Shown: one piece after another, positions 26,095 through 46,250 of the stretch
Position numbering within the stretch: the first letter of the stretch is position 1
How the letters are laid out: every line of letters starts with the position of its first letter
Source of the DNA: a virus
Strand: one strand, 5' to 3'
Length of the DNA: 49,848 bases
Virus record (IMG/VR): IMGVR_UViG_3300023179_000003
Span: 1-49,848 of that record
Position numbers and translations under genes: made by a program
The notes under the pieces: generated by a model
The model's input: only the letters and a program-made list of their open reading frames with translations
Told to the model about the DNA's origin: nothing
Database searches by the model: none

Positions 26095-26110
26095 AGCTAG
26101 TGGTGTGCCA
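26095..26110 (-). promoter_or_regulatory. Sigma-54-type promoter (-24/-12) upstream of DUF669-like gene
   Basis: The minus strand reads TGGCACACCACTAGCT. The -24 box TGGCAC is perfect, and GG is followed after exactly ten bases by GC. It is intergenic (between 26114 and 26033) and predicts a start near 26084. The spacer CACTAGC is nearly the same as that of the capsid element (TGGCACAGCACTAGCA at 46235). Confidence 0.75.
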
Positions 26111-26113
26111 AGA

Positions 26114-26356
26114 TTAGGCAGCTTTTGGTTCGTTGATACTTATACCCTTGCAACCCTCAAGGATAAGCGCAAGTGGATATTGAATCTCCTTGAGTAGTTC
26201 TGCTGACGCAGGTCCGTCGACCTTGATCTGTTTAACTTCTGTAATCAGCGTCTTTCCAGTTTGACCATCGTGATAGACTATCACGGTGAGATTAATTGTG
26301 GTCGAGCCGCGTCCCGGAAGTGTCGGCGATTCTTTCGTATCAGAATTTAGGTTCAT
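26114..26356 (-). CDS. Small hypothetical protein
   Basis: An 80-residue protein between the Sak4-like ATPase and the DUF669-like gene, whose centre alternates hydrophobic residues (TTINLTVIVYHDGQTGKTLI), suggesting a small beta sheet. No family is recognised. The recombination-gene context is the only clue. Confidence 0.6.
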   Translation of the reverse strand: MNLNSDTKESPTLPGRGSTTINLTVIVYHDGQTGKTLITEVKQIKVDGPASAELLKEIQYPLALILEGCKGISINEPKAA

Positions 26357-26361
26357 AAATG

Positions 26362-27048
26362 TTAAGCAACTGCCGCCTCAATCTTCTTCAATGCCTCGTT
26401 CACGTCGTTCGGAATCACATCCGCAAGGCCCCAGAATGGCGGCGTCTTGGCGAGCGTGACGCCGTCGGTTTGCGTGCCGAGGAAGTATTGGATCTTGCCT
26501 GTTTCTTTGTCGCGCTTGGCGAATGAGGTCCAGACGGCAATGCACTCGGACTCGATGCCCTTGTTCGCCCACTCCTTACCTTGCACGAATGCACGGCGTC
26601 GGGTAGTGATGCCGCCATCGAGACCTTGAATCTGTACGATTTCTTCAAGTGAGGTGATGATGCCGATTTTCCGCGTGGCCTTCAGTTCATTGAACAGATC
26701 CTGAATGCCATCGTTGTAGTTCTTCCAGATGTCGAAGCCCTTATACATCTTCTCGCAGTAGACCTGAAGCTGGTCGATGCCGGCCGTGACGCTGTCGAGG
26801 GCAATGATCTTGACTGCGGGATCTTTGGCGGCCTTACGAATCTCGACAAGAAGCTTGTCGCGATTGTCGGATGAAATGACGGCGGCCGGATTCGTCACGC
26901 GAAAGGGCATTCCCTTACGCTCGGCGTCGATGATCCGCGTGGAATCCTGTGGAAGATTCCTCAACGCCGAAGACTTGCCAGTGCCGCTTGGACCGACGAT
27001 GGCGATGAGGGTTGAGAATGGAGTTGGGGCAGGTACGGGAGGAGTCAT
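26362..27048 (-). CDS. Sak4-like RecA-fold ATPase
   Basis: A 228-residue protein with Walker A GPSGTGKS (19-26) and a RecA-like core: KIIALDSVT as Walker B, then a GIITSLEEIVQIQG segment. This is typical of phage Sak4/AAA_24 ATPases that promote single-strand annealing together with an SSB-like protein; a DUF669-like gene follows after one ORF. The start at 27048 lies eight bases after the upstream stop; ATG at 27063 would overlap it. Confidence 0.75.
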   Translation of the reverse strand: MTPPVPAPTPFSTLIAIVGPSGTGKSSALRNLPQDSTRIIDAERKGMPFRVTNPAAVISSDNRDKLLVEIRKAAKDPAVKIIALDSVTAGIDQLQVYCEKMYKGFDIWKNYNDGIQDLFNELKATRKIGIITSLEEIVQIQGLDGGITTRRRAFVQGKEWANKGIESECIAVWTSFAKRDKETGKIQYFLGTQTDGVTLAKTPPFWGLADVIPNDVNEALKKIEAAVA

Positions 27049-27056
27049 GTTTATTC

Positions 27057-27974
27057 TTACCACTTCAGAGGTTCATATTTAACTACCGGAGTTTCACCTA
27101 GAAACAGATCGACTTGATCTTTATTCTGTGCAAAGCAAAGCCGCTTGAACGGACACGATGGGCAACTGTTGGTGACCATGCCAGTGGGCGGCGGAAGCTG
27201 TTCGTCTGCGATATACTCTCGCACAGCCTCGATGAAGTGTTCGACCTCCACACCGAACTGTTCGAACTGCTCGTCGGTGAAGCTCCACTCAGGCCCGACT
27301 CGCCACGTGGGCGGCTGCGCCGAGAGCATCACAATCAGCGGACGCACCACCAGCTTATTGTACCACGCGAGATTGGCGAGATTGATGTCGGACTTGAAGA
27401 TGTCATATGCCCGACGCCGCACGATCCACGGATAGAACGTGAACTGACTGTCGCCGGTGTAAGACTCGACAACGTCCTTGAATAGATACTTGCGCGTGGT
27501 CTTATAGTCGGTGATGATGATGATGTTGCGGCGCGGATCATGGCCGATGAGATCAATCGTGCCGGTGTAGACGAAGCCCGGATAGTTGTCGATTGGGAAC
27601 TCGAACTTGTATTCGGCGCCTTGCATGGCGTCGATCTTGACCGGCACCGGAAGCTGATTGAGATTCAGGGCGGCAATAGCGGCCTTGACTAGACCTTGCT
27701 CCTTGATGCCTAGCTTATATTCCTGAGCTTGCTTCAGCGCCGCGAGCATCGCCTGCATTTGATTGTCGGCGCCTCGATCATATGCCACATCTTCGGCGTA
27801 CTTGTGAATGACCTTGCCCATCAGCAGCGACGATTCTTCCTGATGCGGGCGCAGGCCGAGATAGACCGTCAGCATCCAACGGCGCTGACAGGCGGAGACC
27901 TTCAAGCCGCTGGCGTTGATGGGGATTGTGGACGGGATACCTTCTTGTGGAAGATCTTTGAGGGTGAGTTTCAT
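27057..27974 (-). CDS. PD-(D/E)XK nuclease with Fe-S cluster (Cas4/RecB-like)
   Basis: A 305-residue protein with the RecB-family order: GKVIHKYAE (53-61, motif I His57), GTIDLIG (138-144, Asp141), ITDYKTT (154-160, Asp156 and Lys158) and the QFTFY motif (Gln177). Four cysteines, Cys29 near the N-terminus and Cys271, Cys274 and Cys280 near the C-terminus, form the split 4Fe-4S site of Cas4/AddB-type nucleases. It probably resects DNA ends to feed the Sak4-like annealing system immediately downstream. Confidence 0.8.
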   Translation of the reverse strand: MKLTLKDLPQEGIPSTIPINASGLKVSACQRRWMLTVYLGLRPHQEESSLLMGKVIHKYAEDVAYDRGADNQMQAMLAALKQAQEYKLGIKEQGLVKAAIAALNLNQLPVPVKIDAMQGAEYKFEFPIDNYPGFVYTGTIDLIGHDPRRNIIIITDYKTTRKYLFKDVVESYTGDSQFTFYPWIVRRRAYDIFKSDINLANLAWYNKLVVRPLIVMLSAQPPTWRVGPEWSFTDEQFEQFGVEVEHFIEAVREYIADEQLPPPTGMVTNSCPSCPFKRLCFAQNKDQVDLFLGETPVVKYEPLKW

Positions 27975-29485: not shown

Positions 29486-29490
29486 TTGGG

Positions 29491-30354
29491 TTAAGAGTCT
29501 AGTCGTGGCAACATGGTCCGGCCAAGTTCGCGATTGAGTAGCAGATTGAATAGCGCTCGGACATTACCCAGCGACACAAGTTCCAGTGGAATGTATTCGT
29601 CAGCGTCGAGTGGCTGCCACTTCTCGAAGCGAATGATTTCGTTGGCGACATGTCGAACCTCAGCCAGTCCGCGATCGCTGAGTGAATAAGTACGGAGTTG
29701 AATCTGACTGATGCGGAAGTAAAGATCCTCTCGGAACGTGCCGGCTTTGACCATCGAGAGCAAGTCGCGATTGGTTGCAAAGATAAAGCGGCACTCGATG
29801 CGCACCGGATCAACGGCGCCGACCGGAAGGACTGTCTTGTCTTGGATTACCCGCAGCAACTTAGCTTGCTGACTTAGCGGGAGTTCGCCAATCTCGTCGA
29901 GGAAAGCAAATCCCCTGCCAACATTCCGCAAGAATCCGGGCGCGCCTTTGGACAATGCCCCAGTGAATGCGCCCGGGACGTAGCCAAATAGCTGCGACTC
30001 GAACAGACTATCTGTCAGTCCGGCCATGTTAAGACTGCGGACATTTTTAGCTCCGTCGCCAGAGAATCCAATGATGCCCGCGAGTAGTTCCTTACCGGTG
30101 CCAGAAGGCCCTTCGATCAATACACTAAACTTCTCTAGCATGTATGCGAAGGCAGGAGAGTTAAGCTTGATCGCGAATCGGATAGTCTCGCGAGTGGGCT
30201 CATGTTGTGTTGCGTAGATATACCATGCCCAATCACTTACACGCTTGATGAGGTGCTTGGTGTCGATGAACTCGCGTTCGATTTCGGCTAGCTTATCGGC
30301 TTCGAATTGGGCTTTGAGTGCGGGATGTTCGAGTGGGTTGTTGGAGATTTTCAT
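29491..30354 (-). CDS. Sigma-54 activator AAA+ ATPase, stand-alone (no sensor, no HTH)
   Basis: A 287-residue protein with a complete bacterial-enhancer-binding AAA+ core: Walker A GPSGTGKE (82-89), the sigma-54-contacting loop GAFTGA (128-133) preceded by ESQLFGYVP, Walker B FLDE (151-154), ATNRD (193-197) and FREDLYFRI (207-215, arginine fingers). Residues 1-60 show no receiver, GAF or PAS domain, and the chain ends shortly after the GNVRALFNLLLN segment, so the usual FIS-type HTH is missing. Known enhancer-independent activators lack the HTH too. It would open host RpoN-RNA polymerase complexes at the -24/-12 promoters of this genome. Confidence 0.88.
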   Translation of the reverse strand: MKISNNPLEHPALKAQFEADKLAEIEREFIDTKHLIKRVSDWAWYIYATQHEPTRETIRFAIKLNSPAFAYMLEKFSVLIEGPSGTGKELLAGIIGFSGDGAKNVRSLNMAGLTDSLFESQLFGYVPGAFTGALSKGAPGFLRNVGRGFAFLDEIGELPLSQQAKLLRVIQDKTVLPVGAVDPVRIECRFIFATNRDLLSMVKAGTFREDLYFRISQIQLRTYSLSDRGLAEVRHVANEIIRFEKWQPLDADEYIPLELVSLGNVRALFNLLLNRELGRTMLPRLDS

Positions 30355-30400
30355 GAAGTACGTTTATAGAGTATTGGAATTTTGAATTGTCTATTTGATC

Positions 30401-32551
30401 TTAGCCTTCATCATCTTCATCCTCCTCAGTCTCAATTACTCCCGACGATTCATGTCCCTTCAGATCCTCAGCCGACAGCGCCTGCGCCGCGGCCCGATTC
30501 CGCATAGCTTTCTCAAGCTCACTCGCGAGGTCAACATTACTCGATCCGATCGCGTCGACTGACTTTAGCTTCGACGCCAGCCGCGAGGCCATATGATCGG
30601 CGAGCAGTGTGCGAAGTGGGATATAGATTTCCTGAATAGTGTCTGTGATAGTTGACACTCGAACGCATCGGCCAAGCGCCTGAGCAAACTCCTCGGCCCA
30701 ATAAGTCATGGTGCTCATGACCCAGCGCGGCCGACAGTGAACGTAGCGATGATCCAGCGAGATACCAGTGCCGCCGCTCGACAGGGTATAGACACAGAAC
30801 TCAGTGGCGCCTTCGAGGAACATCTTCACGTTCTCGTGCCGCTCTTCCTGTGTCTGATTGTGCAGCTTCATCTCGCGCAGCTTGATGTTGCGCTCGCGAT
30901 AGTGGTCCTTCGACATCTCTCGGAAGAGACGTTCGCTGGTGTACTTGATTCCCTTCTTGAAGCGGCGAAGTTCGGCCGCGTCTATGCCGAGTTCGTCCGC
31001 GGTCGGCATTGCGAGGCCGGGATTATCCAGCACGAACTTACCGATCAGGCCGCCGATCTCATTGGCGCGTTCGGTCGGGAGCAAGTCTTCCTCCTTGATC
31101 TCGGCCGATCCGCCCCAGATGAGGGATATCTTCTCGCGGGTATAACCCAGTGACTTGAAGTATGGCGACTCCGATAGCTTCATCACGAACTCCTTCAGCG
31201 TCTCAGTGAAGCGAATGGCCAAGACGGGCGCATAGCCTGCCTTGTGATGTTCGATTGCATCAGCGACCCACTGATCTACGCTGGCAAGTTCGGCGGCGCG
31301 GGCCATGACCATGAAGGCAACCATCACCTGACCTTGCGGGTCGATGCTCTTGCCTGTGTTCTCAAGCGACTTGAGATAGTTGTCCATTGCATTGACAACC
31401 ATGCTCCAGTTCGCGGGGTCAGTGATCTCGAATAGCTTGACGCGATTGAGCGCCCGTACTTTCTGCGGATCATTGGGCGGCCGAATGAAGCGGTTGCCGA
31501 TCGCAATACTCCATCGTTCGAGCGCGGCGGCATTAGGCTTATTGAGTGGGATCTTACTGTCGCCATTGAGTGCGCGGCAGAACTCCGTGAACGTCTCGCG
31601 ATTCACAATCCTTCCGTCGTACTCAACCTGCATCGACAGCGTCATGAATAGCGTGTCTTGCAGCGTGACCGCCGGCGTCGCTGATGTGTGAACCCACTTG
31701 ATCTTCGGGAAGGCGAGGAAACTGCGGGCATAGCGATGCCGCTTCGACTTCTCCTTCTTAAGTTCCTGAACCTCGTCGAGGATGATAAGCTTCGGCGCGG
31801 CGGCCTCAGGCAAGTTGAACTTGATGATCTTCGTCGGCTGCCCGAACACTACCTCAGTTGCCTCGCTGAAGAATGCCGCATTCGATCGGGCCATCAGTTC
31901 ATTGTAGCTGATGACTTGCACCGCAAGCCCAACATCCTTAAGGCCTAGCCGCACACAAGTCTCTCTGAACTCAAGCACTACACTGCGCTTAGTCACGATA
32001 AGAATGGGGGCGAATATGCCCATGAAGTTCAGGTACTCGCCGGGCTTATGTTGCTGAAGCCAGAGCGCAAGCCCGGCCGCAATCCAACTCTTGCCCTTGC
32101 CGGTGCCTAGCGGAACAATCGCGCCGCTCAAGTTCTCGTTGAACAGAACATCGAGCAGTGCGGCGATAGCTTTCTTCTGCTGCGGCTTGAACTCAAGTCC
32201 GGTAGGCAACTTGATGTCGATGGTGGAATAGGTTCGCTTCTCTCGCGAGGCTCGCTCTTCGGCGAGTCGAATCTGTTCCTTTCGTGCACGCTCAGGCGCG
32301 GCCGCTACCCACATCGCGGTGATGCTACTGAGCAAGTCGAGATTCAATTGCCGTTCGCGAATGCCCGGCTTGAGTTGAAGTCCAAGCGCTTTCTCGACAG
32401 TGTCCCACGAGAGCTGTCCATATCGACAGGCATCGAGAAGCTTACGCTCAACGGCACGGGCCGAAGTCAGCGCGGATTGCTCAAGTTTCTGGGCAGGATT
32501 AAGTTCTTTGGATGGTGGTTGGAATGCGGGAATAGTGTTGGATAGTTTCAT
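30401..32551 (-). CDS. SF2 helicase (SNF2/DEAD-like)
   Basis: A 716-residue superfamily 2 helicase. Motif I is PLGTGKGKS (147-155), motif II DEVQ (259-262), motif III TSATPA (289-294), motif V SSGGTGIS and motif VI QALGRCVR in the second RecA domain. A charged N-terminal 110 residues and an acidic tail (EEDEDDEG) flank the core. Roles could include origin remodelling, recombination or transcription-complex clearance. The next gene downstream, 46 bases away, is the sigma-54 activator. Confidence 0.82.
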   Translation of the reverse strand: MKLSNTIPAFQPPSKELNPAQKLEQSALTSARAVERKLLDACRYGQLSWDTVEKALGLQLKPGIRERQLNLDLLSSITAMWVAAAPERARKEQIRLAEERASREKRTYSTIDIKLPTGLEFKPQQKKAIAALLDVLFNENLSGAIVPLGTGKGKSWIAAGLALWLQQHKPGEYLNFMGIFAPILIVTKRSVVLEFRETCVRLGLKDVGLAVQVISYNELMARSNAAFFSEATEVVFGQPTKIIKFNLPEAAAPKLIILDEVQELKKEKSKRHRYARSFLAFPKIKWVHTSATPAVTLQDTLFMTLSMQVEYDGRIVNRETFTEFCRALNGDSKIPLNKPNAAALERWSIAIGNRFIRPPNDPQKVRALNRVKLFEITDPANWSMVVNAMDNYLKSLENTGKSIDPQGQVMVAFMVMARAAELASVDQWVADAIEHHKAGYAPVLAIRFTETLKEFVMKLSESPYFKSLGYTREKISLIWGGSAEIKEEDLLPTERANEIGGLIGKFVLDNPGLAMPTADELGIDAAELRRFKKGIKYTSERLFREMSKDHYRERNIKLREMKLHNQTQEERHENVKMFLEGATEFCVYTLSSGGTGISLDHRYVHCRPRWVMSTMTYWAEEFAQALGRCVRVSTITDTIQEIYIPLRTLLADHMASRLASKLKSVDAIGSSNVDLASELEKAMRNRAAAQALSAEDLKGHESSGVIETEEDEDDEG

Positions 32552-32895
32552 TCTTCGGGAGTGGGAGTTTCGATCGGAGTCGCAGGCGCTACGATGTCCA
32601 AGACTTCAAGGACGTTGTTGAATCCGTAGGCTTCGGGCGTGGTGGCTATGGCTGAGACTCGGGCCGACAAGGCTTGAGTCTCAGGCGTATCTTTCTGGAG
32701 GTCTTCGAGATGCTGTTCGAGCTTGCGCTTCTGGTCGAGCAGTGGCTTGAGTTTGTTGTTGATGGCGACAAGCTTAGTCTCGGTGGCGTTGCGGAGTTTG
32801 ACTCGGCGAATGCTAGCGGCATCGCGCTTCGCGGCAAGCTTGTGGAGTTCGGATTCAGTGCTGCGGCGGAGTCTGGACTTCGGCTGTGGATTCAT
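32548..32895 (-). CDS. Coiled-coil protein
   Basis: A 115-residue protein. The chosen start (32895) overlaps the upstream gene by 41 bases; the longer open frame upstream of it is Ser/Arg-rich and reads as an antisense-type artefact. Residues 40-72 (ETKLVAINNKLKPLLDQKRK, then LEQHLEDLQKD) form a clear coiled coil. The stop overlaps the helicase start by ATGA. Confidence 0.6.
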   Translation of the reverse strand: MNPQPKSRLRRSTESELHKLAAKRDAASIRRVKLRNATETKLVAINNKLKPLLDQKRKLEQHLEDLQKDTPETQALSARVSAIATTPEAYGFNNVLEVLDIVAPATPIETPTPEE

Positions 32896-33451
32896 TTGAT
32901 GTGAGTAGGTTACGAGTGTCGATTGACTTGATGATGATGTCGATGGGGAAATAGATTTGTTGTTCGATGAACACACCGAGCAGCATATCGTGTAGATGTT
33001 TGGCGCGCTGGCGATAGTGGTCTTCGCCTTGCGACGTGAGACTCTTTGTGAGGGCAAGAGATTTGTCGGCCGGAAATACTTTCGTGGCCATGATCGCTTG
33101 GTATAGCTGGCTGAACTGGATCTCTTCGGCGCGGCGCGTAAGATGGGCGATGTCGGTGGCGAGGAAGTTCTCGCGCACAAGACGACGGCGCTCGGCGGAA
33201 TGTTCCCACTCGGTGCGATCCCAGATCACACAGTAGTGAAGGTTGTCTTCGTTGATGGTCTGAATGTGGAACAGTTCAGACGTGAGGATTGAAGACAGTG
33301 AGTCGGCAGTGTCGGGCGTGACGACGATTGCGTAGGCAAGATGATTGCCGGCGGTGCGTCGGATGAAGTGTGAATGGGCTGCGTCTAAGGTGCAAGTGCA
33401 GCCGCGAAATAGAAGTTCATGGAGTTGTTTGGGTGATAGTTCAAGAGACAT
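32855..33451 (-). CDS. Hypothetical protein, first gene of the helicase/activator operon
   Basis: A 198-residue mixed alpha/beta protein not recognised by motif. The first gene after the sigma-54-type promoter at 33467-33482: the predicted transcript would start only about five bases before this ATG, so translation would be almost leaderless. Confidence 0.6.
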   Translation of the reverse strand: MSLELSPKQLHELLFRGCTCTLDAAHSHFIRRTAGNHLAYAIVVTPDTADSLSSILTSELFHIQTINEDNLHYCVIWDRTEWEHSAERRRLVRENFLATDIAHLTRRAEEIQFSQLYQAIMATKVFPADKSLALTKSLTSQGEDHYRQRAKHLHDMLLGVFIEQQIYFPIDIIIKSIDTRNLLTSNESTAEVQTPPQH

Positions 33452-33466: not shown

Positions 33467-33482
33467 AGCTTAGCTTGTGCCA
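33467..33482 (-). promoter_or_regulatory. Sigma-54-type promoter of the helicase/activator operon
   Basis: The minus strand reads TGGCACAAGCTAAGCT: perfect TGGCAC, then GC after ten bases. It lies between the terminator of the upstream gene and the ATG at 33451. The operon it heads includes the sigma-54 activator itself, implying positive feedback. Confidence 0.75.
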
Positions 33483-33548: not shown

Positions 33549-34211
33549 TTACTTCGCCGGCGCCGGCTTCGTGGCAGCCTTCGCCTCGCGCTTGGCCTTC
33601 GCGGCGGCCAACTCCTGCGACTTCGCATGGAGCGACACGACCGCAAGCGCGATGTTCTGCCGCTTCGCGATGGCCGCCTCACGATCAGGCACGCCGAGCT
33701 GCTTCGCGACATCGTCAGTCCACTCGCCATCGAGCGCCATGTACAGCTGACCAAGCTCCGCGCGGAGAGACTGCAACTTGGCATTGACAGACTTCTCAGT
33801 CTCGCGATCGGGCGCGACGCCGTAGACAAAGCTGCCCATATAGTCGAGCAGCTGGCCCTTCTTCAGGTACGCCTCAGTCGCATCCTCGGCAACGTCGGCA
33901 AGATACGCCTTGACTTCGTCGTCGAGCAGCGTGCTGTTCACGACCGTCTCAGTCTCCTTGCCATCGGGGCCAACAGACTTGACGCGATGCTCGGTCGGCA
34001 CGATAGCCTTGGCTTCGGCCAGTGCAATCGCAAAGGCCAGCGAAGCGACCTTCAAGACGGGCGTCTTGAACTCGACGGTGCGCTCGGCGGACCTAGCGGT
34101 CTTGCGGACGTGACGTGTGGCCACGTCGAGCCGCGGCTGACCGTCCTCCAACTCGGCGAAGACTCGGCCGGCGAAGGTTTCGATGTTATTCTGCTTGTTG
34201 TACTCGCTCAT
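33549..34211 (-). CDS. Monocistronic hypothetical protein, probably abundant
   Basis: A 220-residue mainly helical protein with a Lys/Ala/Pro-rich tail (AAAKAKREAKAATKPAPAK) and several acidic/basic patches. It has its own sigma-54-type promoter (34359-34374), a 137-base leader and its own terminator, an isolated unit in an otherwise tightly overlapped arm. That suggests strong regulated expression, for example of a DNA-binding or virion-associated protein. No domain is recognised. Confidence 0.65.
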   Translation of the reverse strand: MSEYNKQNNIETFAGRVFAELEDGQPRLDVATRHVRKTARSAERTVEFKTPVLKVASLAFAIALAEAKAIVPTEHRVKSVGPDGKETETVVNSTLLDDEVKAYLADVAEDATEAYLKKGQLLDYMGSFVYGVAPDRETEKSVNAKLQSLRAELGQLYMALDGEWTDDVAKQLGVPDREAAIAKRQNIALAVVSLHAKSQELAAAKAKREAKAATKPAPAK

Positions 34212-34358: not shown

Positions 34359-34374
34359 AGCTACGGCTGTGCCA
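34359..34374 (-). promoter_or_regulatory. Sigma-54-type promoter of the 33549-34211 gene
   Basis: The minus strand reads TGGCACAGCCGTAGCT with GG-N10-GC spacing and a perfect -24 box. It sits three bases after the stop of the upstream gene and predicts a start near 34348. Confidence 0.75.
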
Positions 34375-35385: not shown

Positions 35386-35820
35386 TTACGGAATCAACGG
35401 TTCATAAGCCGCAAGCTTTTCCCAATGTGCAATGACATCTGGATGTGCATCGTTTTTGTTCTTCAACAACTTCGTCGCCTCAGTCTTAAGCCATGTCCTG
35501 CCTCCGTCGAGGAACTCCACCACTCTTGCCGGAATATCATACTGCGGATACAGCGCATCGTTCAGTTTGAGAATCATGAACGGCCCTTCGATACGCCGGG
35601 TGCGGCGAATGATGTCTAGATAGGCACAGCTTGCTTGGAATCCCGTCACGCCCTTGACGTTGGCGATGTAGTTGTAGGTAGCCACAGCGGCAAGTGACAT
35701 TGCATAGACTGCTGTGCCATAGTCATGCTCCTGTTCGCGCAGGTCTTCGATATATTTTGTCAACTCCTCAATCTTGTTGAAGGTTGGGACAGTGTGCTCT
35801 CGCATTTCTTGTTCGTTCAT
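35386..35820 (-). CDS. Hypothetical helical protein
   Basis: A 144-residue protein. The start at 35820 is favoured by the AACACAAACACT leader directly before the ATG; an in-frame ATG at 35853 forms TAATG with the upstream stop and is the alternative. Helices predominate (IEELTKYIEDLREQEHD). No family is recognised. About 100 bases between this gene and the next (35282-35385) hold only a weak sigma-54-like sequence. Confidence 0.55.
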   Translation of the reverse strand: MNEQEMREHTVPTFNKIEELTKYIEDLREQEHDYGTAVYAMSLAAVATYNYIANVKGVTGFQASCAYLDIIRRTRRIEGPFMILKLNDALYPQYDIPARVVEFLDGGRTWLKTEATKLLKNKNDAHPDVIAHWEKLAAYEPLIP

Positions 35821-35852
35821 AGTGTTTGTGTTAGTTTCTGTTAGTGGTTTCA

Positions 35853-36119
35853 TTAAGCGTCTTTGATTATTACTGATGTCGTCCCGCGCTGCATCGCTGC
35901 ACCATTCGTGCCTTTCGCCGAGCGATGCGTGACTTTCATGTGGTTTTTGTACACTGCCGGATGAAGAGGCTTGACATTGCCGCCTGTCTTGTGGCCGTAT
36001 TCAACGGTGCCTTTGTACATCCATTGAGGCTGACACTTTAGACAGCGGTCGATGCCCAGAGCTTTACGCTCGGAGGGCATCGGGCGCAGGCAGCGAAGAC
36101 AGATAGGATTTAGGGCCAT
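35853..36119 (-). CDS. Zinc-ribbon-containing small protein
   Basis: An 88-residue basic protein with CLRC (7-10) and CLKC (26-29), a four-Cys zinc ribbon, then a Lys/His/Thr-rich tail. A good Shine-Dalgarno (GGGAGGAAA) precedes this start. It probably binds nucleic acid or an enzyme of the host. Confidence 0.6.
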   Translation of the reverse strand: MALNPICLRCLRPMPSERKALGIDRCLKCQPQWMYKGTVEYGHKTGGNVKPLHPAVYKNHMKVTHRSAKGTNGAAMQRGTTSVIIKDA

Positions 36120-36121
36120 GT

Positions 36122-36409
36122 TTAATTTCCTCCCAATTCCTGTCCGATTTCTGCGGCGGTTAGCATACAGAAATGACCAAGAGGCTCATCGACATTATAC
36201 ATAAACAGTACGTAGTACTCTGGCCACACGCATGCACGTTCGACTAGCATAAAGCGGCACTTATCCGACGGAAGCGGACGAGCCACAATCTTCCAATCAA
36301 TTCCCTCACGCGGCTGTTCGCTGAGGAATTGATGAAGATACTTACTTCCTTGAATAGGGAAGCGATCATTCCACGGCGAGTAGCAGTCAAAGATAAAGTT
36401 GCAGTTCAT
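36122..36409 (-). CDS. Hypothetical protein
   Basis: A 95-residue protein starting at 36409, 13 bases after the upstream stop. It contains several Cys and aromatic residues (MNCNFIFDCYSPW, ACVWPEYYVLFMYNV). The longer frame to 36481 overlaps the upstream gene and is not used. No domain is recognised. Confidence 0.5.
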   Translation of the reverse strand: MNCNFIFDCYSPWNDRFPIQGSKYLHQFLSEQPREGIDWKIVARPLPSDKCRFMLVERACVWPEYYVLFMYNVDEPLGHFCMLTAAEIGQELGGN

Positions 36410-36422
36410 ACGACAATTACTT

Positions 36423-36914
36423 TCAGTCCATAATCTTGGCATCGTGTGCTTCACGCCGTGCTTCATCACGTTCACGTTCAAGGCGTTCTATTTCGCTTCG
36501 AAGCAACTTGAGTGCGTCCTCTTGTTTGCAGAAATCGCCGATAGCTATTGTCTGAAATATCGCATCCGTCTCCGGTGTTGGTTGGGTGGTCACTCCACCC
36601 TCCATGCGACGGCGGGCGAGACTTTCTGGAAAATCTTTATGTGGTCTGTGCAGCACAAAATCAGCGGTGTTATTTCCGCCCTCCTTGTAAGCTTCCTCCA
36701 GCCACGCGGCCGGGACGAGTCGGTGCCAGTAAATAGGCTGCTCTAGTTTTCCCACAGCGATAGAAACTCCATTTGCTGTTGCCTTCATTTCTCCGTCAAT
36801 GATGGCAAGTGCATACGGCTTAGGATCACGCCCAAGTACCTTGCACAAATACCAACCCGACTTAGTAGGCAACTCGTCCGTGAAGACGAGGCCTTCATTT
36901 GTGATGGTTTTCAT
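36423..36914 (-). CDS. Hypothetical accessory protein
   Basis: A 163-residue protein. The start at 36914 overlaps the stop of the 32-residue membrane peptide gene (ATGA). The N-terminal half resembles small phage proteins with GWYLCKVLGRDPKP; the C-terminal half has TPETDA and a charged helix (LLRSEIERLERERDEARREA). Function is unknown. Confidence 0.55.
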   Translation of the reverse strand: MKTITNEGLVFTDELPTKSGWYLCKVLGRDPKPYALAIIDGEMKATANGVSIAVGKLEQPIYWHRLVPAAWLEEAYKEGGNNTADFVLHRPHKDFPESLARRRMEGGVTTQPTPETDAIFQTIAIGDFCKQEDALKLLRSEIERLERERDEARREAHDAKIMD

Positions 36915-37009
36915 TTCTTCCTTTCCGCCCAAGCCATAGCGATAAACGCAGTGGCCATGCAAATAACGACCATACAGAATTGAATTGTCTCAGCAGTTTC
37001 TTTATTCAT
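36911..37009 (-). CDS. 32-residue membrane peptide
   Basis: The frame encodes MNKETAETIQFCMVVICMAT and then AFIAMAWAERKK: a single hydrophobic helix followed by a basic end. AAAGGA lies five bases before the ATG, and the stop overlaps the next start by ATGA. Both features argue that this tiny gene is translated. Confidence 0.55.
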   Translation of the reverse strand: MNKETAETIQFCMVVICMATAFIAMAWAERKK

Positions 37010-37083
37010 TTCATTCCTTTCGTAACCGTCCAAGACAACCCACCCGCAGATGGGTTGAATGAATGGTCAGTAGTCGTCGACGC

Positions 37084-37236
37084 TTAGTCACGCGTGACGT
37101 ACTTATCGCCACTTTTGTTGAACGGATCGTGCCGATACATCAGCAGCTTGCCGTACGTGTACGTATGGGCATTGAGCCGCTGCGTGCGACGGCGGACGTT
37201 GGCGAGTTCTTCGGGCGGGAGCTGACGGAGCTTCAT
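37084..37236 (-). CDS. 50-residue basic protein
   Basis: The frame encodes MKLRQLPPEELANVRRRTQR and continues with Tyr/His-rich basic sequence. The leader TTAACACAAACATCCT precedes the ATG, matching other small genes of this arm. The gene is followed by 74 bases that contain a 7-bp hairpin (37036-37057). Confidence 0.55.
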   Translation of the reverse strand: MKLRQLPPEELANVRRRTQRLNAHTYTYGKLLMYRHDPFNKSGDKYVTRD

Positions 37237-37302
37237 AGGATGTTTGTGTTAACTACGTGAATGTCTCACGCTCAGGCGACGTGATTGACACCTGCGCTAA
37301 AG

Positions 37303-37324
37303 ACACTCTTGGTTAGAAGAGTGT
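37303..37324. terminator. Hairpin, possible terminator
   Basis: ACACTCTT-GGTTAG-AAGAGTGT is an 8-bp perfect stem with a six-base loop, located between the genes ending at 37336 and starting at 37236. The following T-run is weak (CTTT on the minus strand), so partial termination or mRNA processing is as likely. Confidence 0.4.
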
Positions 37325-37335
37325 TATGAAAGTTG

Positions 37336-37437
37336 CTATTCGAGGATAGCAGAGACGATCAAATAGCCAATGGCCCACATCAAAGTGAGTCCGGTGGCGA
37401 TTTGAATGCCCAATACAACGCGTTCTTTCCAGTTCAT
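37336..37437 (-). CDS. 33-residue membrane peptide
   Basis: The frame encodes MNWKERVVLGIQIATGLTLM and ends WAIGYLIVSAILE: a short charged start followed by one long hydrophobic segment. It starts 18 bases after the stop of the Ala-rich protein gene with a CTTAACTAC leader. It resembles the small membrane peptide at 36911 in size and design but not in sequence. Confidence 0.5.
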   Translation of the reverse strand: MNWKERVVLGIQIATGLTLMWAIGYLIVSAILE

Positions 37438-37455
37438 GTAGTTAAGAATAGATGC

Positions 37456-38139
37456 TCATTCGGTGATCGAAAGAAGCCGCTCGACCAGCGGGAGAGCGTC
37501 GGCAGCGGCGCCAACGCCGATGGCGACGGCAGCGTCGGCGATGGCAGCGTTAGCAGCGTCGGCGATGGCAGCAGCGTTGGCAGCAGCAGCAGCGTCGGCA
37601 GCGTCGGCGATGGCAGCGTTAGCAGCGGCGTTAGCAGCGGCAGCAGCGTTGGCAGCGGCAGCGTTAGCAGCGGCGTCTTTGGCGACGGCACGCCGACGCA
37701 CCGCCAAAGCCGCCGCCTGGCCTGCCCTGGCGCTCGGACCATCCACGATCTCCGCCAATGCCCGCAGCGTCGCAGCCTGCTCGGCCCATCCGAGCTTGTC
37801 GCATAGCTCGACTAGGATGGTTCGCACGGCCCAATCCGCGGCGGCAAATCCCCGCCGGCGGGTCAACTCCGTTGAACCCCTGCTTCCCACAAGGCGCGGC
37901 AGCAACGGCCGCAGCAACCGGCTCCGCTCCGCATTTGAGGGCAGGCGGTCATTGATGCGGCGGACCAACGCAGCGATCACTGGGCACGCGCACCGCGGGT
38001 GGTCCGAGTGCGGCTCGCCGGCCAGCCATGCGACCGTCTCCATGGCGCAGGCGCCGGCCGACGTGAACGCCTTGTGAGCGCCTTTCAGCAGCGGGATTGA
38101 GTCCAGTTGTTGGAGTCTGTCTTGGATTGGGGTTATCAT
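37456..38139 (-). CDS. Ala-rich repeat protein with conserved N-terminal domain
   Basis: A 227-residue protein. Residues 25-120 have a conserved-looking domain (ACAMETVAWLAGEPHSDHPR then CACPVIAALVRRINDRLP) seen in uncharacterised phage and mobile-element proteins. Residues about 153-210 are a low-complexity run of AAN/AAD/IAD triplets, encoded by repeated GCGTTAGCAGC-type units at 37500-37680. The repeat number probably varies between isolates. Leader TAACACAAACTAAA; the TAA is the stop codon of the upstream gene. Confidence 0.6.
   Translation of the reverse strand: MITPIQDRLQQLDSIPLLKGAHKAFTSAGACAMETVAWLAGEPHSDHPRCACPVIAALVRRINDRLPSNAERSRLLRPLLPRLVGSRGSTELTRRRGFAAADWAVRTILVELCDKLGWAEQAATLRALAEIVDGPSARAGQAAALAVRRRAVAKDAAANAAAANAAAAANAAANAAIADAADAAAAANAAAIADAANAAIADAAVAIGVGAAADALPLVERLLSITE
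37500..37680. repeat. Low-complexity Ala-codon repeat tract
   Basis: Imperfect repeats of GGCAGCGTTAGCAGCG and GGCGATGGCAGCG type fill this tract. Read on the minus strand they give Ala-Ala-Asn and Ala-Asp triplets. The plus-strand open frames here are reading-frame shadows of the repeat. Confidence 0.8.
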
Positions 38140-38150
38140 TTTAGTTTGTG

Positions 38151-38354
38151 TTAGTTGTTGACTACGGAAAGATCGACAATCCTCTTAGCTGTAAGCGACT
38201 TCAACACTTGCATGTCACTATCGGAACATCCAATTTCGGCTGCCGACTGACTTGCAAGCCATCTTATTGCAGTTGCAATAACAATCTGTTCGTCAAGTGT
38301 CGATTCAGCACAACCGCAGAGGATTTGATGAATGCGGGACATTTCGATTTGCAT
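38151..38354 (-). CDS. Small helical protein, paralogue of 38602-38787
   Basis: A 67-residue protein. Its layout (TLDEQIVIATAIRWLAS then SLTAKRIVDLS) aligns with the gene at 38602 (TIQQAAAIGAAVRYTN then FTAEGLVELC), indicating an old duplication. Leader TAACACAAATTAATT, in which TAA is the upstream stop. Function unknown; typical early host-takeover size. Confidence 0.55.
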   Translation of the reverse strand: MQIEMSRIHQILCGCAESTLDEQIVIATAIRWLASQSAAEIGCSDSDMQVLKSLTAKRIVDLSVVNN

Positions 38355-38366
38355 AATTAATTTGTG

Positions 38367-38588
38367 TTAAGCCCAAGTGATTGGAGAAAGCTTCGTGCGA
38401 TTCGACGGCACGACGAAAGTGCCCTTCATGCGCCACGAGCGGCCCTTGTTGAGACTACGCTTGTCGTGCTTTGCGGCGGACTTAGAGACGGCAGACGTTG
38501 ACGGCGCACGACGAAGAGCTTCAATCGTGCCTAGGTTATAGACGTTTCTCGGAGTCTTGTCCCATGCTGCGGATGGATTACTTCGCAT
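38367..38588 (-). CDS. Small basic hypothetical protein
   Basis: A 73-residue strongly basic protein (SAAKHDKRSLNKGRSWRMKG). Leader TAACACAAGGTAAATT; the TAA is the stop of the upstream gene. Probably nucleic-acid binding, no motif. Confidence 0.55.
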   Translation of the reverse strand: MRSNPSAAWDKTPRNVYNLGTIEALRRAPSTSAVSKSAAKHDKRSLNKGRSWRMKGTFVVPSNRTKLSPITWA

Positions 38589-38601
38589 AATTTACCTTGT
38601 G

Positions 38602-38787
38602 TTAGCTGCCACACAATTCAACCAAACCTTCCGCCGTAAATTCACCATAACGGCTAATGAAATCTTTCTTCTGTTCATCGGTGATGGTGAAGTTAGTATA
38701 CCTAACAGCTGCCCCGATTGCGGCAGCTTGCTGAATAGTAATTTTACCATCCAGAAGTAGCTTGATGGCCAAATCGTCGATTTTCAT
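38602..38787 (-). CDS. Small helical protein, paralogue of 38151-38354
   Basis: A 61-residue protein, first gene of the tiny-gene cluster next to the structured non-coding region. It shares the I-x-x-A-x-R helix and the TAxxxVxL C-terminus with the 38151 gene. Leader TTAACACAAAGTAAA. A weak sigma-54-like sequence (TGGCAGATACTATGCG, minus strand) ends 36 bases upstream. Confidence 0.55.
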   Translation of the reverse strand: MKIDDLAIKLLLDGKITIQQAAAIGAAVRYTNFTITDEQKKDFISRYGEFTAEGLVELCGS

Positions 38788-38822
38788 TTTACTTTGTGTT
38801 AATTTTATGCGCTTTACTTGAA

Positions 38823-39743
38823 CGCATAGTATCTGCCACGAAAAGGGAATAATTGCGCGAAGTGCGCGATGGAAACTAGCTAGAGGAAGCTAGGAAGTAG
38901 AGGCTACTTGCTTTTAAGACCGCTTTATCGGGGCAGATACTATGCGCCCAACAGAGCCAACTTCATCGCGTGCTGGAGTAAGCAATGGCATTGCCTACTG
39001 ATTCCAACGGGAGCAACTATCAAAACTCTGTGGGCGGTTAAGCGTCTAACATGCGGACAAGCGCATGTTATCGTCTAACTGCACGCTCTAGACTGTACCG
39101 TCCGGGGTTTTGCTTGTTGTCGCCCAATGACGATTAGCAGTCTGAGGAGTGCGGGCCGGTTCTGAGAAGCTAAACTAGACTCGTTGAAACGCTGACGTGT
39201 AACAGACGTTGCCTTTTCAGACGTTGCCCATTGCGGGCTGTCTCGGCTTCTCTGCCGGGTCGGATTAGGTGGATTGAATCCGCGAACGGATCGTTACATC
39301 CTATCCATTACCCAATCGTCCAGCATCGCTGTTTGCAGGACCGGAGAGGAGACGCAGCGGCGAGCCACTACTGTCTCATGTCTCTAGTCTAGGCTCCATT
39401 TGGTCGTTGCAGCGTCACGAATTGTCACAGGCAATACATGAGTGTGCTAGGCTCATGGCGACGACGACACTACACCTAGTGTCGTCGTGTCCCATTCGTG
39501 GGCAACGTACCTTTCGCGGACGGGTAAATCCCGCCTCACAGACGACGACGTGCTAACACGTGCCGTCTGGCTTCGGAGCATTGACGATTGAGCGCAGACG
39601 TTAGGTAAGCCGCATTGAGCGGCAGGAATTGCCTAGGCTCGTCCGCTATGCAAAAAAGAACCGTCCCACAACGCGAAGCGAAGGGACAGATTGGGCGCCA
39701 TTACGCAGGGCAATGGCGCCTATCTGTCACTTCGTCGCGTTGT
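38823..39743. ncRNA. Candidate giant structured RNA (about 0.9 kb, no genes)
   Basis: No convincing open frame fills this stretch, whereas the rest of the genome is almost fully coding. Helices seen by eye include: 38823-38837 with 38932-38946 (15 bp, perfect), enclosing three hairpins (38855-38867, 38876-38893, 38895-38909) like a cloverleaf; 38946-38956 with 39026-39035 enclosing 38977-38999; 39047-39070 (9 bp); 39081-39095 with 39138-39152; 39156-39170 with 39246-39258; 39437-39457; 39461-39488 (12 bp, four-base loop); 39491-39502 (TTCG loop); 39521-39533; 39539-39569 (two tiers); 39609-39623; and 39668-39743 (29 bp in four blocks). Strand evidence from wobble pairs is mixed, with purine-rich loops on the plus strand. 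Confidence 0.6.
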
Positions 39744-39990
39744 CCAGTGCGACGGCCAAGCTCCACGCCGATGCGAACACGCCGGCTCTCGTGGCATCAA
39801 TGCCGGCCCACGTCGCGGCCTTCGCGGCCGAGGCGGACCCGAACGAGACGCCGCCTTTCGTGGCACGTTCGGCCGTCTTGACGGCACCAAAGCCCGTAAG
39901 GATGCGTTCGCGCTTGGCTACGATTGCGTTGCGAATGTCTCCGGCCGGAATAAGTGCCGCGGCGGCGTCGAATGTCTGTCCGTTGCTCAT
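39727..39990 (-). CDS. Small Ala-rich hypothetical protein, first minus-arm gene
   Basis: An 87-residue Ala-rich helical protein (MSNGQTFDAAAALIPAGDIR at the start). Its start is preceded by AACACTAACTACCTCATT and by a nested inverted repeat in the leader. Its 3' end lies inside the large hairpin at 39668-39743, which may act as its transcript end or as the 5' edge of the structured region. Confidence 0.55.
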   Translation of the reverse strand: MSNGQTFDAAAALIPAGDIRNAIVAKRERILTGFGAVKTAERATKGGVSFGSASAAKAATWAGIDATRAGVFASAWSLAVALDNATK

Positions 39991-40590
39991 AATGAGGTAG
40001 TTAGTGTTTTGATTGAACCGTACCCTCTCCTTTTCATTGATTCCTCTTTAATTGTCAATGCCTTTCCCCATTTCAACGGTTCAATCCGGCGCGGAAACCC
40101 TTCATTATCAATGCTTTGCAACTATTTCACTTTTCTTCAAAGACTTGCCACGATTTCGCCTTCCATCTAATTCCCTTGTGCGTTTTGGATATTAAAATGG
40201 CCTGTTTTGGATATTCAACCGCGTCTTCGCATAGCTTATTCATCGTTTAACACTAACAAGACTCAAATTCTATGTCTTGGATGCTAAATAAGGTGTAGTA
40301 TAGACTTATAGACATTTTTTTGAGAGGGGGTATGAATACAATAGTATATTATATACTACATATGTTATAAAACTAGAGTCTAAGCCCTTCCTCACCTAAT
40401 AATATGTTATATTATCTACATATTATTCCAATCTTCATTCAATCTATCTTGAACGTCTTGTTCAAACTAAACGTTCAATACGTTCTAAACGCCACTAGCC
40501 ACACCGCCGCCGCACGCGAAGAGCCCGAAAAGAAGTTGATTTCCGAAACAACCACCATTTCCACATTTTATACAAATCTAGATGCAAAAT

Positions 40591-40605: not shown

Positions 40606-40621
40606 TGGCATTAGGCTTGCA
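40606..40621 (+). promoter_or_regulatory. Sigma-54-type promoter of the terminase/structural operon
   Basis: TGGCATTAGGCTTGCA fits the consensus TGGCAY-N5-TTGCA completely, with ten bases between GG and GC. The predicted start is near 40632, giving a 22-base leader with TAAGG before the ATG at 40654. It heads the late structural arm. Confidence 0.82.
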
Positions 40622-40653: not shown

Positions 40654-41121
40654 ATGTCAATGCTCCGCAATCAAATATTGGGTTTTCGCCGCGCCGGAAT
40701 GGAAGAAGGAGAAATCGCCGCCACACTTGACATTGAGCCTGAAGTTGTAAGGGCCGCTCTTGGTGCAATCGGCGGAAGTAGCGTCATTCGCCAGCAGATT
40801 CGCGAGGCCGAGCCCGAAGATGAGGAAGTTTCGGCCGCCGAAAGCGGAGAAATGCTCGGGATTTTGAAGACTATCGCCCGATCCGAAGATTCTGGCGTCT
40901 TTGCACAGATGTCGGCCGCGAAATACGTGCATGGAGTTCGGGCCGGCTATCACAAACGCCACCTCGATCTCAATGTTTCCAGCGGCGGCCTGCTGAATAA
41001 GATCAACGACGCCTACGCTGACGCCGCGGCCAAAGCTTTCTTGGCCCTTAAGCGTCCGGCTCCGGAAATTAACGTGACGGCGAGCGCTGAAAAGCCTGCG
41101 GCGCCAAACCCCGGCCCTTAA
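40654..41121 (+). CDS. Terminase small subunit-like protein
   Basis: A 155-residue protein directly upstream of the large terminase. The N-terminus (ILGFRRAGMEEGEIAATLDI then EPEVVRAAL) looks like a helix-turn-helix, followed by an acidic linker (EAEPEDEEVSAAE) and a helical oligomerisation region, with a Pro/Ala-rich tail. This is the usual layout of small terminases that recognise the pac or cos site. Sequence similarity alone is weak, but position is strong. Confidence 0.7.
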   Translation: MSMLRNQILGFRRAGMEEGEIAATLDIEPEVVRAALGAIGGSSVIRQQIREAEPEDEEVSAAESGEMLGILKTIARSEDSGVFAQMSAAKYVHGVRAGYHKRHLDLNVSSGGLLNKINDAYADAAAKAFLALKRPAPEINVTASAEKPAAPNPGP

Positions 41122-41122: not shown

Positions 41123-42862
41123 ATGTCAATTAAGCAATTCGCGAAGATCTCTGATGCTGACTTGGCCAAGTTTCGTAAGGCCAAACCGGCCGCGCAGCCT
41201 ACTAAGCAGCCCGATTCTGCTCCTGTGGAGGTAGCAGCACCAGTTCCAGAGAAGCCAAAGTGGCAAGCGCACAACATTCCGACCCCGCTGCACCTTCTTC
41301 TTGCCCACCGCAAAGACAAGAAGCCATACCAGTGGCAAGCTGAGACTCTATTCCAGCTCGCCGGCTATAACGTTAACGATCTCTCACAGCCGCCGACTAA
41401 ACCCACGGACAAGATTCCGCTCTACTACAATCTCGTCGCGGCAAACGGATCAGGAAAGGATCAAATCGTCATCGCGGCCTTCGCGGCATGGTTCGCATTG
41501 AGTAAAGTCCGGAGCCGCTGCATCATTACGTCCTCGTCGTATGAGCAGTTGAAGGATCAAACCTTCAAGTACATCCGCACACTCTGTGAAGACATCAACA
41601 TATTCCACGGCCGTAAGGTATTCGAGATCGTTGAGTTCCAAGTAACATGCAACGACACCGGCAGCGAGATCAAATGCTTCGTCACTGATGATCCGGGCAA
41701 AGCCGAAGGTCGGCATCCGTTCGATGACTACGAAGGATCGGAGATGGCAGTCATTGTTAACGAGGCAAAGTCGATTGCAGACGAGATGTTCCAAGCCTTC
41801 AGTCGATTCACAGGCTATAACTACTGGATCGAGATCTCTTCACCGGGTCCAACCACCGGACATTTCTATCGCCGATGCACGATGGCTGAATACAGTTGGC
41901 CGACCGAGATTAAACTCGGTGAGTTTTACTGGCGCCGCATTACCGCATTCGACTGCGATCATTTGCTAGGTAAACATATCGACAACCTCAAGAAAGAATA
42001 CGGTGAGAATAGCCTTCTATATCGCAGTCAGGTTCTTGCAGAGTTTACTACGCTTGATGAAGCGGCCTTCATCTCATCGATGCTGTTCGAGAATTACCCG
42101 AAGCTTCCGCCGCGCACGTTCGGGTTAAAGAATCGGGCCGGACTCGACTTGTCGATGGGCGGCGATGAGATGGTGATGTACGTATTCATGAGCGGCAAAC
42201 TTTACATGCGTCGAGCCAAGCACGAAAAGGTTGGTGCGATCGTGGCGCAGATCATTACGTGGATTAAAGAGTTCGGACTTGACCCTAGTGAAATCCGGGC
42301 GGATGATGGCGGAAGCGGCAAAGCTATCCTCGACAGACTCGAAGAGCTAGGCTATGCAGTCATTCGCGTCCGCAACGAACAGCGCGCGTCAAACCCGAAC
42401 TTCTACAAGAATCGCGGAGCTGAGAACTGGAACCGAATCAAGCGACTCACCGAAGACAAACTCCTGCCGAACCTCGAAGACACCGAGACGATCCTTCAGC
42501 TTACCAAGCGCGGATACAAAGTCACCGGCATTGTCACGGCACTCGAAAAGAAAGCCGAGATGAAAGCCCGAGGCTTATCGTCGCCCGATCGTGCAGATGC
42601 ACTGGCCCTTTGTTTCGACGGCGTTCCAATCTCGACCTTCCAAGAAGGTGCAACGGTCACCGTCGTATCAAATGATCCGCAGTCGCGATTCGACGAACTG
42701 TTGATGATCGGAAAGAATCGCCAACTTACGCCCGACGAACAAACAGAACTCATGTGCTTGTTCACAACAGTAGCCGAGCGGCGAAAGCCGGCACGACAAT
42801 CGCTAGATGGAGATGAGTCAGAAACCCAGAATCGCGGTCTATTTCACATTCACCTACAATGA
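41123..42862 (+). CDS. Terminase large subunit
   Basis: The 579-residue packaging motor. Walker A AANGSGKD (106-113), Walker B MAVIVNEA (208-215, with Asn213 where Asp is common), and coupling motif ISSPG (238-242). The RNase H-like nuclease has Asp342 in GLDLS, Asp394-Asp395 in RADDGG and a late Asp in SSPDRADALAL. An N-terminal Pro/Ala-rich 45 residues precede the ATPase. It packages and cuts DNA at the portal. It begins two bases after the small-subunit stop and overlaps the next gene by ATGA. Confidence 0.9.
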   Translation: MSIKQFAKISDADLAKFRKAKPAAQPTKQPDSAPVEVAAPVPEKPKWQAHNIPTPLHLLLAHRKDKKPYQWQAETLFQLAGYNVNDLSQPPTKPTDKIPLYYNLVAANGSGKDQIVIAAFAAWFALSKVRSRCIITSSSYEQLKDQTFKYIRTLCEDINIFHGRKVFEIVEFQVTCNDTGSEIKCFVTDDPGKAEGRHPFDDYEGSEMAVIVNEAKSIADEMFQAFSRFTGYNYWIEISSPGPTTGHFYRRCTMAEYSWPTEIKLGEFYWRRITAFDCDHLLGKHIDNLKKEYGENSLLYRSQVLAEFTTLDEAAFISSMLFENYPKLPPRTFGLKNRAGLDLSMGGDEMVMYVFMSGKLYMRRAKHEKVGAIVAQIITWIKEFGLDPSEIRADDGGSGKAILDRLEELGYAVIRVRNEQRASNPNFYKNRGAENWNRIKRLTEDKLLPNLEDTETILQLTKRGYKVTGIVTALEKKAEMKARGLSSPDRADALALCFDGVPISTFQEGATVTVVSNDPQSRFDELLMIGKNRQLTPDEQTELMCLFTTVAERRKPARQSLDGDESETQNRGLFHIHLQ

Positions 42863-43098: not shown

Positions 43099-43105
43099 AT
43101 AACCT

Positions 43106-44857: not shown

Positions 44858-45057
44858 TCGAACCTTCCACAGAAGCATGGCGCATGTGGGCCAGAATCCC
44901 AGAGACTCAAGTGTTCCTACTTAGCCTCCAAAATCGGGACAAAGAACTCTGCACGCTCGCCAAGAATGCAGCTAAGCGCGGCGATTCGCCGAATGAATTT
45001 CTTCTTCGAGCCTCAGTATTCGAAGAAGTTGCACAAGAGATAGCCACAAAACTATGA
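44854..45057 (+). CDS. Small hypothetical head-region protein
   Basis: A 67-residue helical protein overlapping portal and scaffold genes by ATGA on both sides. No family recognised. Confidence 0.65.
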   Translation: MIEPSTEAWRMWARIPETQVFLLSLQNRDKELCTLAKNAAKRGDSPNEFLLRASVFEEVAQEIATKL

Positions 45058-46223
45058 CACTAAGCCCCTCAGCTCCTGCTGCGTCTACGGCGCCAGCGGC
45101 AGCACCGGCATCAGCCCCAGCAACGCCACAAGGTCAGACAGCGCCACTGTCTCCCTCAACATTCCAAGGAGATAGCCACCGAGCATTGCCGCCTTCAAAG
45201 GGCACGAAGCTCGATGGCGAAATCTCTCTCGACTTCGACAACGATGACTTGGGCGTACTCAAACCGGCAGCCGAGAAAGTCACGTCTACTGACAAACCTG
45301 CTCCCGATTCTACTCCTGAGGCGGAAAAGGACGAGTTCGACCTGACGCCTGATCCAGTTAAGGAGGCGCTGAAGAAGCTCAAGGATACTCCCGAGAAGCC
45401 TGAGGAGAAAGTCGAAGAGCCTAAAGTTGAGATTCCCGACACCAAAGCGACGGCGAAAGATCATGCAGGGCGCAAGTACACAGGCGTCGATGAAGTCGAT
45501 GCGGTACTAAAGAAGCTCCCGAACGGAACATACGACAAGGTCAAGGACGAGATTCCGAAGTGGTTCGATGCTTACAAGAAGCAATCCGAAGCGCCGAAGT
45601 ATCTCGCCGCGCATCCCGATGCATACACACTGAGCCCGCAGTATAAGGCGGCGGCGTCAGATTATCAGTTCAAACAGTTCGAGGCTCAGTCGGTTCGGGC
45701 CGCATTGCTTCAATACAAGAACAATCAGCCGATTAAACTTCTCGACGGATACGACGACAAGAATAATCCGCTCTATCAAACCATCAATCCGATCAATGGT
45801 CGTCATGATCCGGCGATCGAACTGAGTCTTCAGGAATACTTCAACAACGCCAACGGAAACTTGCAGCAAGCCACGCAGGCACTTCAGGGATCGAAGCAAG
45901 CTTACGATCAGTGGGTAGCGAAAGATCATGCGTTCATTGAAGATACGTTCAAGAAGATGTTCAAGGACATCACGCCTGAGACTCTGACACCCGAAGAGAA
46001 GAAGTTCGAGAAGATGCTTGAGCCGCTGATTCCCGACAGCATCACGCCCGCTCATGCCCGGCGACTTGCACACTATGCAATGGTAAGCAACCTACGCCTC
46101 GCGAAGTCATTCGCTAAATACGTAGAGCAGACCAAGGCGCCAACGATTCGCCCGAAGGCTGGCCCGACTGGCGCCGGAGTCGGAGATGCGATCCCGCTCG
46201 CCAACATGTTCGGAGATGATTAG
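45054..46223 (+). CDS. Scaffold-like protein
   Basis: A 389-residue protein immediately before the capsid gene. Residues 1-145 are disordered and rich in Ala, Pro, Glu, Lys and Thr (APASAPATPQGQTAPLSPS, DTPEKPEEKVEEPKVE), followed by a helical part rich in Lys/Tyr/Gln and ending with PTGAGVGDAIPLANMFGDD. This is the composition and position of podoviral capsid-assembly scaffolds. Confidence 0.7.
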   Translation: MTLSPSAPAASTAPAAAPASAPATPQGQTAPLSPSTFQGDSHRALPPSKGTKLDGEISLDFDNDDLGVLKPAAEKVTSTDKPAPDSTPEAEKDEFDLTPDPVKEALKKLKDTPEKPEEKVEEPKVEIPDTKATAKDHAGRKYTGVDEVDAVLKKLPNGTYDKVKDEIPKWFDAYKKQSEAPKYLAAHPDAYTLSPQYKAAASDYQFKQFEAQSVRAALLQYKNNQPIKLLDGYDDKNNPLYQTINPINGRHDPAIELSLQEYFNNANGNLQQATQALQGSKQAYDQWVAKDHAFIEDTFKKMFKDITPETLTPEEKKFEKMLEPLIPDSITPAHARRLAHYAMVSNLRLAKSFAKYVEQTKAPTIRPKAGPTGAGVGDAIPLANMFGDD

Positions 46224-46234
46224 TCCGCGGAAGT

Positions 46235-46250
46235 TGGCACAGCACTAGCA
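46235..46250 (+). promoter_or_regulatory. Sigma-54-type promoter of the major capsid gene
   Basis: TGGCACAGCACTAGCA has a perfect -24 box, GG-N10-GC spacing and one mismatch in the -12 box (TAGC for TTGC). It starts 12 bases after the scaffold stop and predicts a start near 46261 and a 151-base structured leader before the capsid ATG. Confidence 0.75.

Follow-up and report, generated by a model that had tools for sequence, protein, structure and literature searches.

Bacteriophages T4 (with gp55) and SPO1 encode sigma factors of their own for the transcription of middle and late genes. To our knowledge, phages take over bacterial transcription by sigma-70-type factors, by co-activators or by polymerases of their own. 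In bacterial sigma-54 activators (bEBPs), a C-terminal helix-turn-helix (HTH) domain that binds an upstream enhancer is usual but not universal, and FlgR and CtcC are natural bEBPs without a DNA-binding domain. Classical sigma-54 promoters carry a T just before the GC at -12 (TTGCW). The truncated activator DctD250, which consists of the AAA+ domain only, works on sigma-54 promoters without an enhancer and from solution (PMC3844500). Phage sigma factors were described in PMC9429907 and PMC4331800, where sigma-54 is unmentioned. The literature yielded no report of a sigma-54 encoded by a phage, nor of a sigma-54 regulon in one, which is no proof of absence, as subscription papers for the most part and bioRxiv lay outside the search.

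The stretch of DNA analysed here (the window) comprises 49,848 nucleotides of the viral record IMGVR_UViG_3300023179_000003. Judged from its sequence, five sites of the -24/-12 type are very likely sigma-54 promoters which would be opened by host sigma-54 RNA polymerase (E-sigma54) together with a phage activator, with positive feedback through the activator's own operon. Like the sigma factors of phiEco32 and 7-11 (PMC4331800), such a system would redirect the host RNA polymerase to the phage's own later promoters, and here, too, a sigma gene found in sister phages would be transcribed from a phage promoter. However, the described phage sigma factors are related to sigma-70 and need no ATPase, whereas the present system would combine sigma-54 with promoters of the -24/-12 type and with an obligatory activator driven by ATP. 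It is probable that a large and uncultured lineage of tailed phages of about 50 kb uses sigma-54 for middle/late transcription with a dedicated activator, that one clade possesses the complete autonomous circuit with an autoregulated rpoN, and that this is the first viral sigma-54 system. If true, phage gene regulation would gain a new branch, in which the ATP-gated, enhancer-type sigma-54 pathway is used together with an activator that amplifies itself and, in one clade, with a sigma-54 of the phages' own.

The window and its relatives

The ends of the window share a terminal direct repeat of 127 bp, so the assembly is most likely circular and complete, with a length of about 49.7 kb. The coding share is 91.5%, and Rfam and tRNA scans were empty. 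The sole pointer to the host of this phage is its large terminase:

41123..42862, plus strand: large terminase subunit (TerL), 579 aa, 31% identity to Akkermansia phage terminases

With the terminase alone as query, no viral relatives were found, and portal and capsid had no match among 50,697 phage records. The query that yielded viral relatives was the sigma-54 activator encoded in the window. A profile search with it identified 33 viral contigs at 58–64% identity, below which identity falls sharply to around 50% and lower, in most cases along a shorter stretch. Among 84,980 species genomes, no cellular sequence exceeded 52% identity to the activator. Eighteen related viral contigs with orthologous activators were fetched and annotated, and gene content and order, from the terminase through the helicase to a split DNA polymerase A, are common to the window and these relatives.

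The phage activator

The activator gene lies in an operon with a helicase gene and the cl10 gene:

29491..30354, minus strand: phage sigma-54 activator (bEBP), 287 aa, AAA+ with GAFTGA, PF00158 E=2.8e-46
30401..32551, minus strand: DEAD/ResIII-type helicase, 716 aa, PF00270 E=4e-7, PF04851 E=3e-6
32855..33451, minus strand: cl10 orthologue, 198 aa, first gene of the activator operon by gene order and sequence similarity

The Sigma54_activat domain (PF00158) covers residues 72–220, and the motifs GPSGTGKE, GAFTGA and FLDEIGE (Walker A and B and the contact loop) are conserved among the orthologues, with GSFTGA in place of GAFTGA in relative G002. An AlphaFold model built on an alignment of 48 sequences reached a mean pLDDT of 91, and the best 50 Foldseek matches of this model in the PDB were all sigma-54 activators; solved relatives by sequence include NtrC1, NifA, ZraR, FleQ, FlrC and PspF. 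The best 50 matches in a library of viral structures were other or unnamed AAA+-type proteins (Clp/Lon proteases, MoxR-like ATPases, clamp loaders), none of them a sigma-54 activator by name. In PHROGs, phrog_7998, a family annotated there as of unknown function, matches the activators of the window (E=8e-27) and of a distant relative (E=1.5e-43). By sequence and model, the gene is thus a bona fide sigma-54 activator gene, for whose product ATPase activity and promoter opening are predicted.

The protein shares fold, GAFTGA loop and Walker motifs with the bEBPs NtrC1, FlrC, FleQ and PspF, but a Pfam scan revealed no HTH, receiver or other known sensor domain, and its C-terminus, at residue 287, is the AAA+ lid. 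It also differs from these bEBPs in that a phage encodes it, within a replication operon that has a promoter of the activator's own type. Closer in architecture are DctD250 (PMC3844500), FlgR and CtcC, which consist of the AAA+ domain only or nearly so, and for which, as for the phage activator, action from solution without an enhancer is expected; in contrast to them, it is a natural phage gene with a new N-terminal part of about 50 residues and with phage targets.

INPHARED records labelled as phages with matches to the activator or to RpoN were set aside; judged from annotations and descriptions, they look mostly like host contigs (Listeria, Acinetobacter and Salmonella records). A human gut phage (L244, MT121960.1) encodes a sigma-54-activator-like protein with an altered Walker A motif (GETGTDKE); strict sigma-54 sites were not found in MT121960.

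The five -24/-12 sites

The preliminary description had listed five intergenic -24/-12 sites, and all five 16-mers were found at the coordinates and on the strands given there:

26095..26110, minus strand: sigma-54-type site before the SSB-like (DUF669) gene, TGGCACACCACTAGCT
25500..26033, minus strand: SSB-like protein, 177 aa, target of the preceding site, phrog_378 E=4e-9, DUF669 E=7e-7
33467..33482, minus strand: sigma-54-type site before the cl10-helicase-activator operon, TGGCACAAGCTAAGCT
34359..34374, minus strand: sigma-54-type site before the cl18 gene, TGGCACAGCCGTAGCT
33549..34211, minus strand: cl18 orthologue, 220 aa, single-gene unit, putative target by sequence similarity and position
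40606..40621, plus strand: sigma-54-type site before the terminase-portal operon, TGGCATTAGGCTTGCA
40654..41121, plus strand: probable small terminase subunit (cl25), 155 aa, directly before TerL, kept in 9 contigs
46235..46250, plus strand: sigma-54-type site before the probable capsid gene, TGGCACAGCACTAGCA
46412..47713, plus strand: probable major capsid protein (cl34), 433 aa, kept throughout the lineage, distant relatives included

The assignment of cl25 is based on its position directly before TerL, and that of cl34 on its position following the portal region. All five sites lie wholly outside genes and each points towards its gene, as had been claimed. They have TGGCAY at -24 and a spacing of exactly 10 bases between GG and GC. 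The base before the -12 GC departs from the textbook element, being A in four of the five sites and T in one.

The pattern TGGCAYN6WGCW matches the window five times, compared with a mean of 0.93 (maximum 4) in 200 dinucleotide shuffles, none of which reached 5 or more. All five matches are outside genes in spite of the coding share of 91.5%. In 500 control patterns with permuted columns, the mean was 0.87 matches, 0.06 of them intergenic. The earlier statement that TGGCAC copies in coding regions lack the spaced GC did not hold strictly, as the looser TGGCAYN7GC also matches inside genes at 530 (minus), 19626 (plus) and 24424 (minus); these matches differ from the five sites only by the W flanking GC.

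The site closest to the textbook consensus, TGGTACGGCACTTGCA at 4485 (plus), was rejected since it is intragenic, at a gene end, and has no counterpart in relatives. Visual inspection of the 60 nt upstream of the sites showed no shared element. The 33467 site stands directly behind a terminator-like hairpin.

Conservation of the sites

In other phages, all five sites have counterparts ahead of the orthologous genes, and in 20 relatives bearing the activator the strict pattern yielded 44 matches, compared with 1 for the reversed control. Before the SSB-like gene, orthologous sites are present in G001, G002, G003, G006, G010, G012, G016–G019 and others, and several relatives share CTCCCATTTG downstream of this promoter. 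At the locus of the 33467 site, relatives carry the site before rpoN-cl10. The 16-mer TGGCACAGCCGTAGCT is identical in G001 at 19171 (minus), and most phages with rpoN have a site 97–112 nt upstream of cl18. Orthologous sites were found about 15 nt upstream of cl25 in G013, G014, G018, G019 and G020, and 102–157 nt upstream of the capsid gene in G009, G014, G019 and G020; in five of six distant relatives (G021, G022, G025, G034 and G038), the capsid gene has a site 115–140 nt upstream. By eye, several sites directly follow terminator-like hairpins, and at the SSB-like and capsid promoters conservation includes the beginning of the transcribed region.

The capsid-promoter 16-mer TGGCATATCGTTAGCA also occurs at G016:33482 and G006:3152, there without a called capsid ORF of the cl34 type downstream; in these two phages the cl34 gene may be replaced or interrupted.

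Sigma-54 genes in sister phages

A sigma-54 gene was found in 14 of the 20 activator-bearing contigs (PF04552, E 1e-50 to 5e-53), one of them cut by the contig end. In 14 of the 16 genomes that cover the locus, rpoN lies just before cl10 behind the same promoter, giving the order [sigma-54 site]-rpoN-cl10-helicase-...-activator. The encoded proteins have about 430 aa, and all three scanned contain PF00309, PF04963 and PF04552 (AID, CBD and DBD) above cut-off. The RpoN box ARRTIAKYRAELGI is invariant in nine aligned phage sequences, the phage sigma-54 profile can be aligned over its full length with the E. coli sigma-54 of polymerase structures, and dN/dS of 0.07–0.14 indicates purifying selection. 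No PHROGs family matches the phage sigma-54.

In the window and in G001, cl10 comes directly after the site and the rpoN slot is empty: the window has neither a PF04552 match nor a remnant detectable by tblastn, and rpoN is absent from the entire G001 contig. Phage records that matched the phage sigma-54 were discarded, most of them being host contigs by appearance. Host assignment via RpoN similarity was abandoned as well, since ten genomes from mixed phyla and 59 genomes from the phylum of a planctomycete genome alike gave identities of about 28–44%.

Alternative explanations for the motif and the activator

The motif might be the operator of another conserved phage DNA-binding protein, a repressor or activator, with an accidental likeness to -24/-12 elements. 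Four of the window sites indeed agree beyond the sigma-54 consensus (mostly TGGCACAN4TAGCW), and at the rpoN promoter of ten rpoN-bearing relatives (L170:3311-3352 and nine others) there is an extra inverted repeat, TTGGCA-N9-TGCCAA, followed by AA(C/T)-TTGGCA and present only at this locus. The repeat abuts the -24 element and is possibly an autoregulatory operator. An operator reading of the sites themselves is nevertheless very unlikely: the spacing between GG and GC is 10 in every clade, the strand agrees with the downstream gene, the motif is accompanied by a sigma-54 activator and, in one clade, also by sigma-54, and distant relatives show the textbook TTGCT form. Among distant relatives, 34 of 40 sites have T before the -12 GC; in the window's clade 8 of 9 sites, and in the rpoN-bearing clade 18 of 30, have A there. 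These counts suggest that the shift to A may predate, or be independent of, the acquisition of rpoN.

It is likewise hardly probable that the activator is host-derived cargo which reprograms sigma-54 genes of the host, with the phage sites minor or incidental. An activator without a DNA-binding domain would switch on host sigma-54 promoters as well (compare DctD250, PMC3844500), but the gene is a core gene beside the helicase even in relatives of about 30% identity, is under strong purifying selection, and the phage sites upstream of structural genes are conserved. The activator may act on the host in addition to the phage regulon instead of in its place. A regulon made up of chance motif matches has a negligible probability: the looser pattern does occur three times inside genes, but shuffles, permuted patterns and the reversed control speak against chance and orthologous conservation already refutes it.

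Proposed mechanism

A genome-wide sigma-54 regulon with a phage activator, as originally proposed, is thus supported by the activator gene, by orthologous sites in divergent relatives and by rpoN at the matching place in 14 relatives. We infer that another promoter, an early one, would supply the first activator molecules; no such start for the loop was found, sigma-70-like matches being at chance level between 33 and 41 kb. As it has no DNA-binding domain, the activator should act from solution and would use ATP to remodel sigma-54 RNA polymerase that waits at the promoters of the phage. By way of the 33467 site it would raise its own operon and close a positive loop, which in turn would switch on genes for replication (helicase and SSB-like), cl18, packaging (terminase-portal) and the capsid. 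The window, having no rpoN, would rely on the sigma-54 of its host, while the sister clade, in which rpoN heads the activator operon, should be autonomous.

The idea of a self-reinforcing late switch agrees in its first part with the site before the activator's own operon; the term late is too narrow, since replication and recombination (helicase, SSB-like) are represented among the targets besides packaging and capsid, and a middle-plus-late programme is the better guess.

If this mechanism applies, infection may also switch on sigma-54 genes of the host, and these phages would provide minimal natural sigma-54/activator pairs for mechanism studies, together with an evolutionary contrast between sister phages that do and those that do not carry a sigma-54 gene in the same promoter slot.

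Distant relatives and evolution

Another 24 viral contigs have more distant activators and none has rpoN; 9 of them carry 8–12 strict sites each, compared with 0 or 1 in the control. Six of these distant relatives were fetched and have terminase, portal, capsid, polymerase, helicase and activator in common with the window's clade at about 30% identity. Without rpoN, they mostly show canonical sites of the TGGCAYRN4TTGCT type. In a concatenated tree rooted on these six, in which some internal supports are low, the phages with rpoN form one clade, whose sister group is formed by the window, G001 and G002. The most economical account is a single gain of rpoN; a gain followed by a loss in the window's line is possible. 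According to the best reading, the ancestral strategy was to drive host E-sigma54 with a self-amplifying activator, and one clade later became autonomous by acquiring rpoN.

Other features of the window

Between 12387 and 17639 (plus), the window encodes a protein of 1750 aa without a family match. Its distant homologue in G022 has 2450 aa and contains an ADP-ribosyltransferase domain of polyvalent proteins (PF18760, E=4e-27), which was not seen in the window's protein. In a putative early region (35818–38801, minus), six small genes share the leader TAACACAA-N-ATG, and an obvious Shine-Dalgarno sequence is absent from them. Next to it, about 1.2 kb (38800–40120) contain no conserved gene and match neither Rfam nor tRNA models. 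DNA polymerase A is encoded by two separate genes, 22549–23973 and 20242–21234 (region 20242–23973, minus), with small genes between the two parts, and this arrangement is kept across the relatives.
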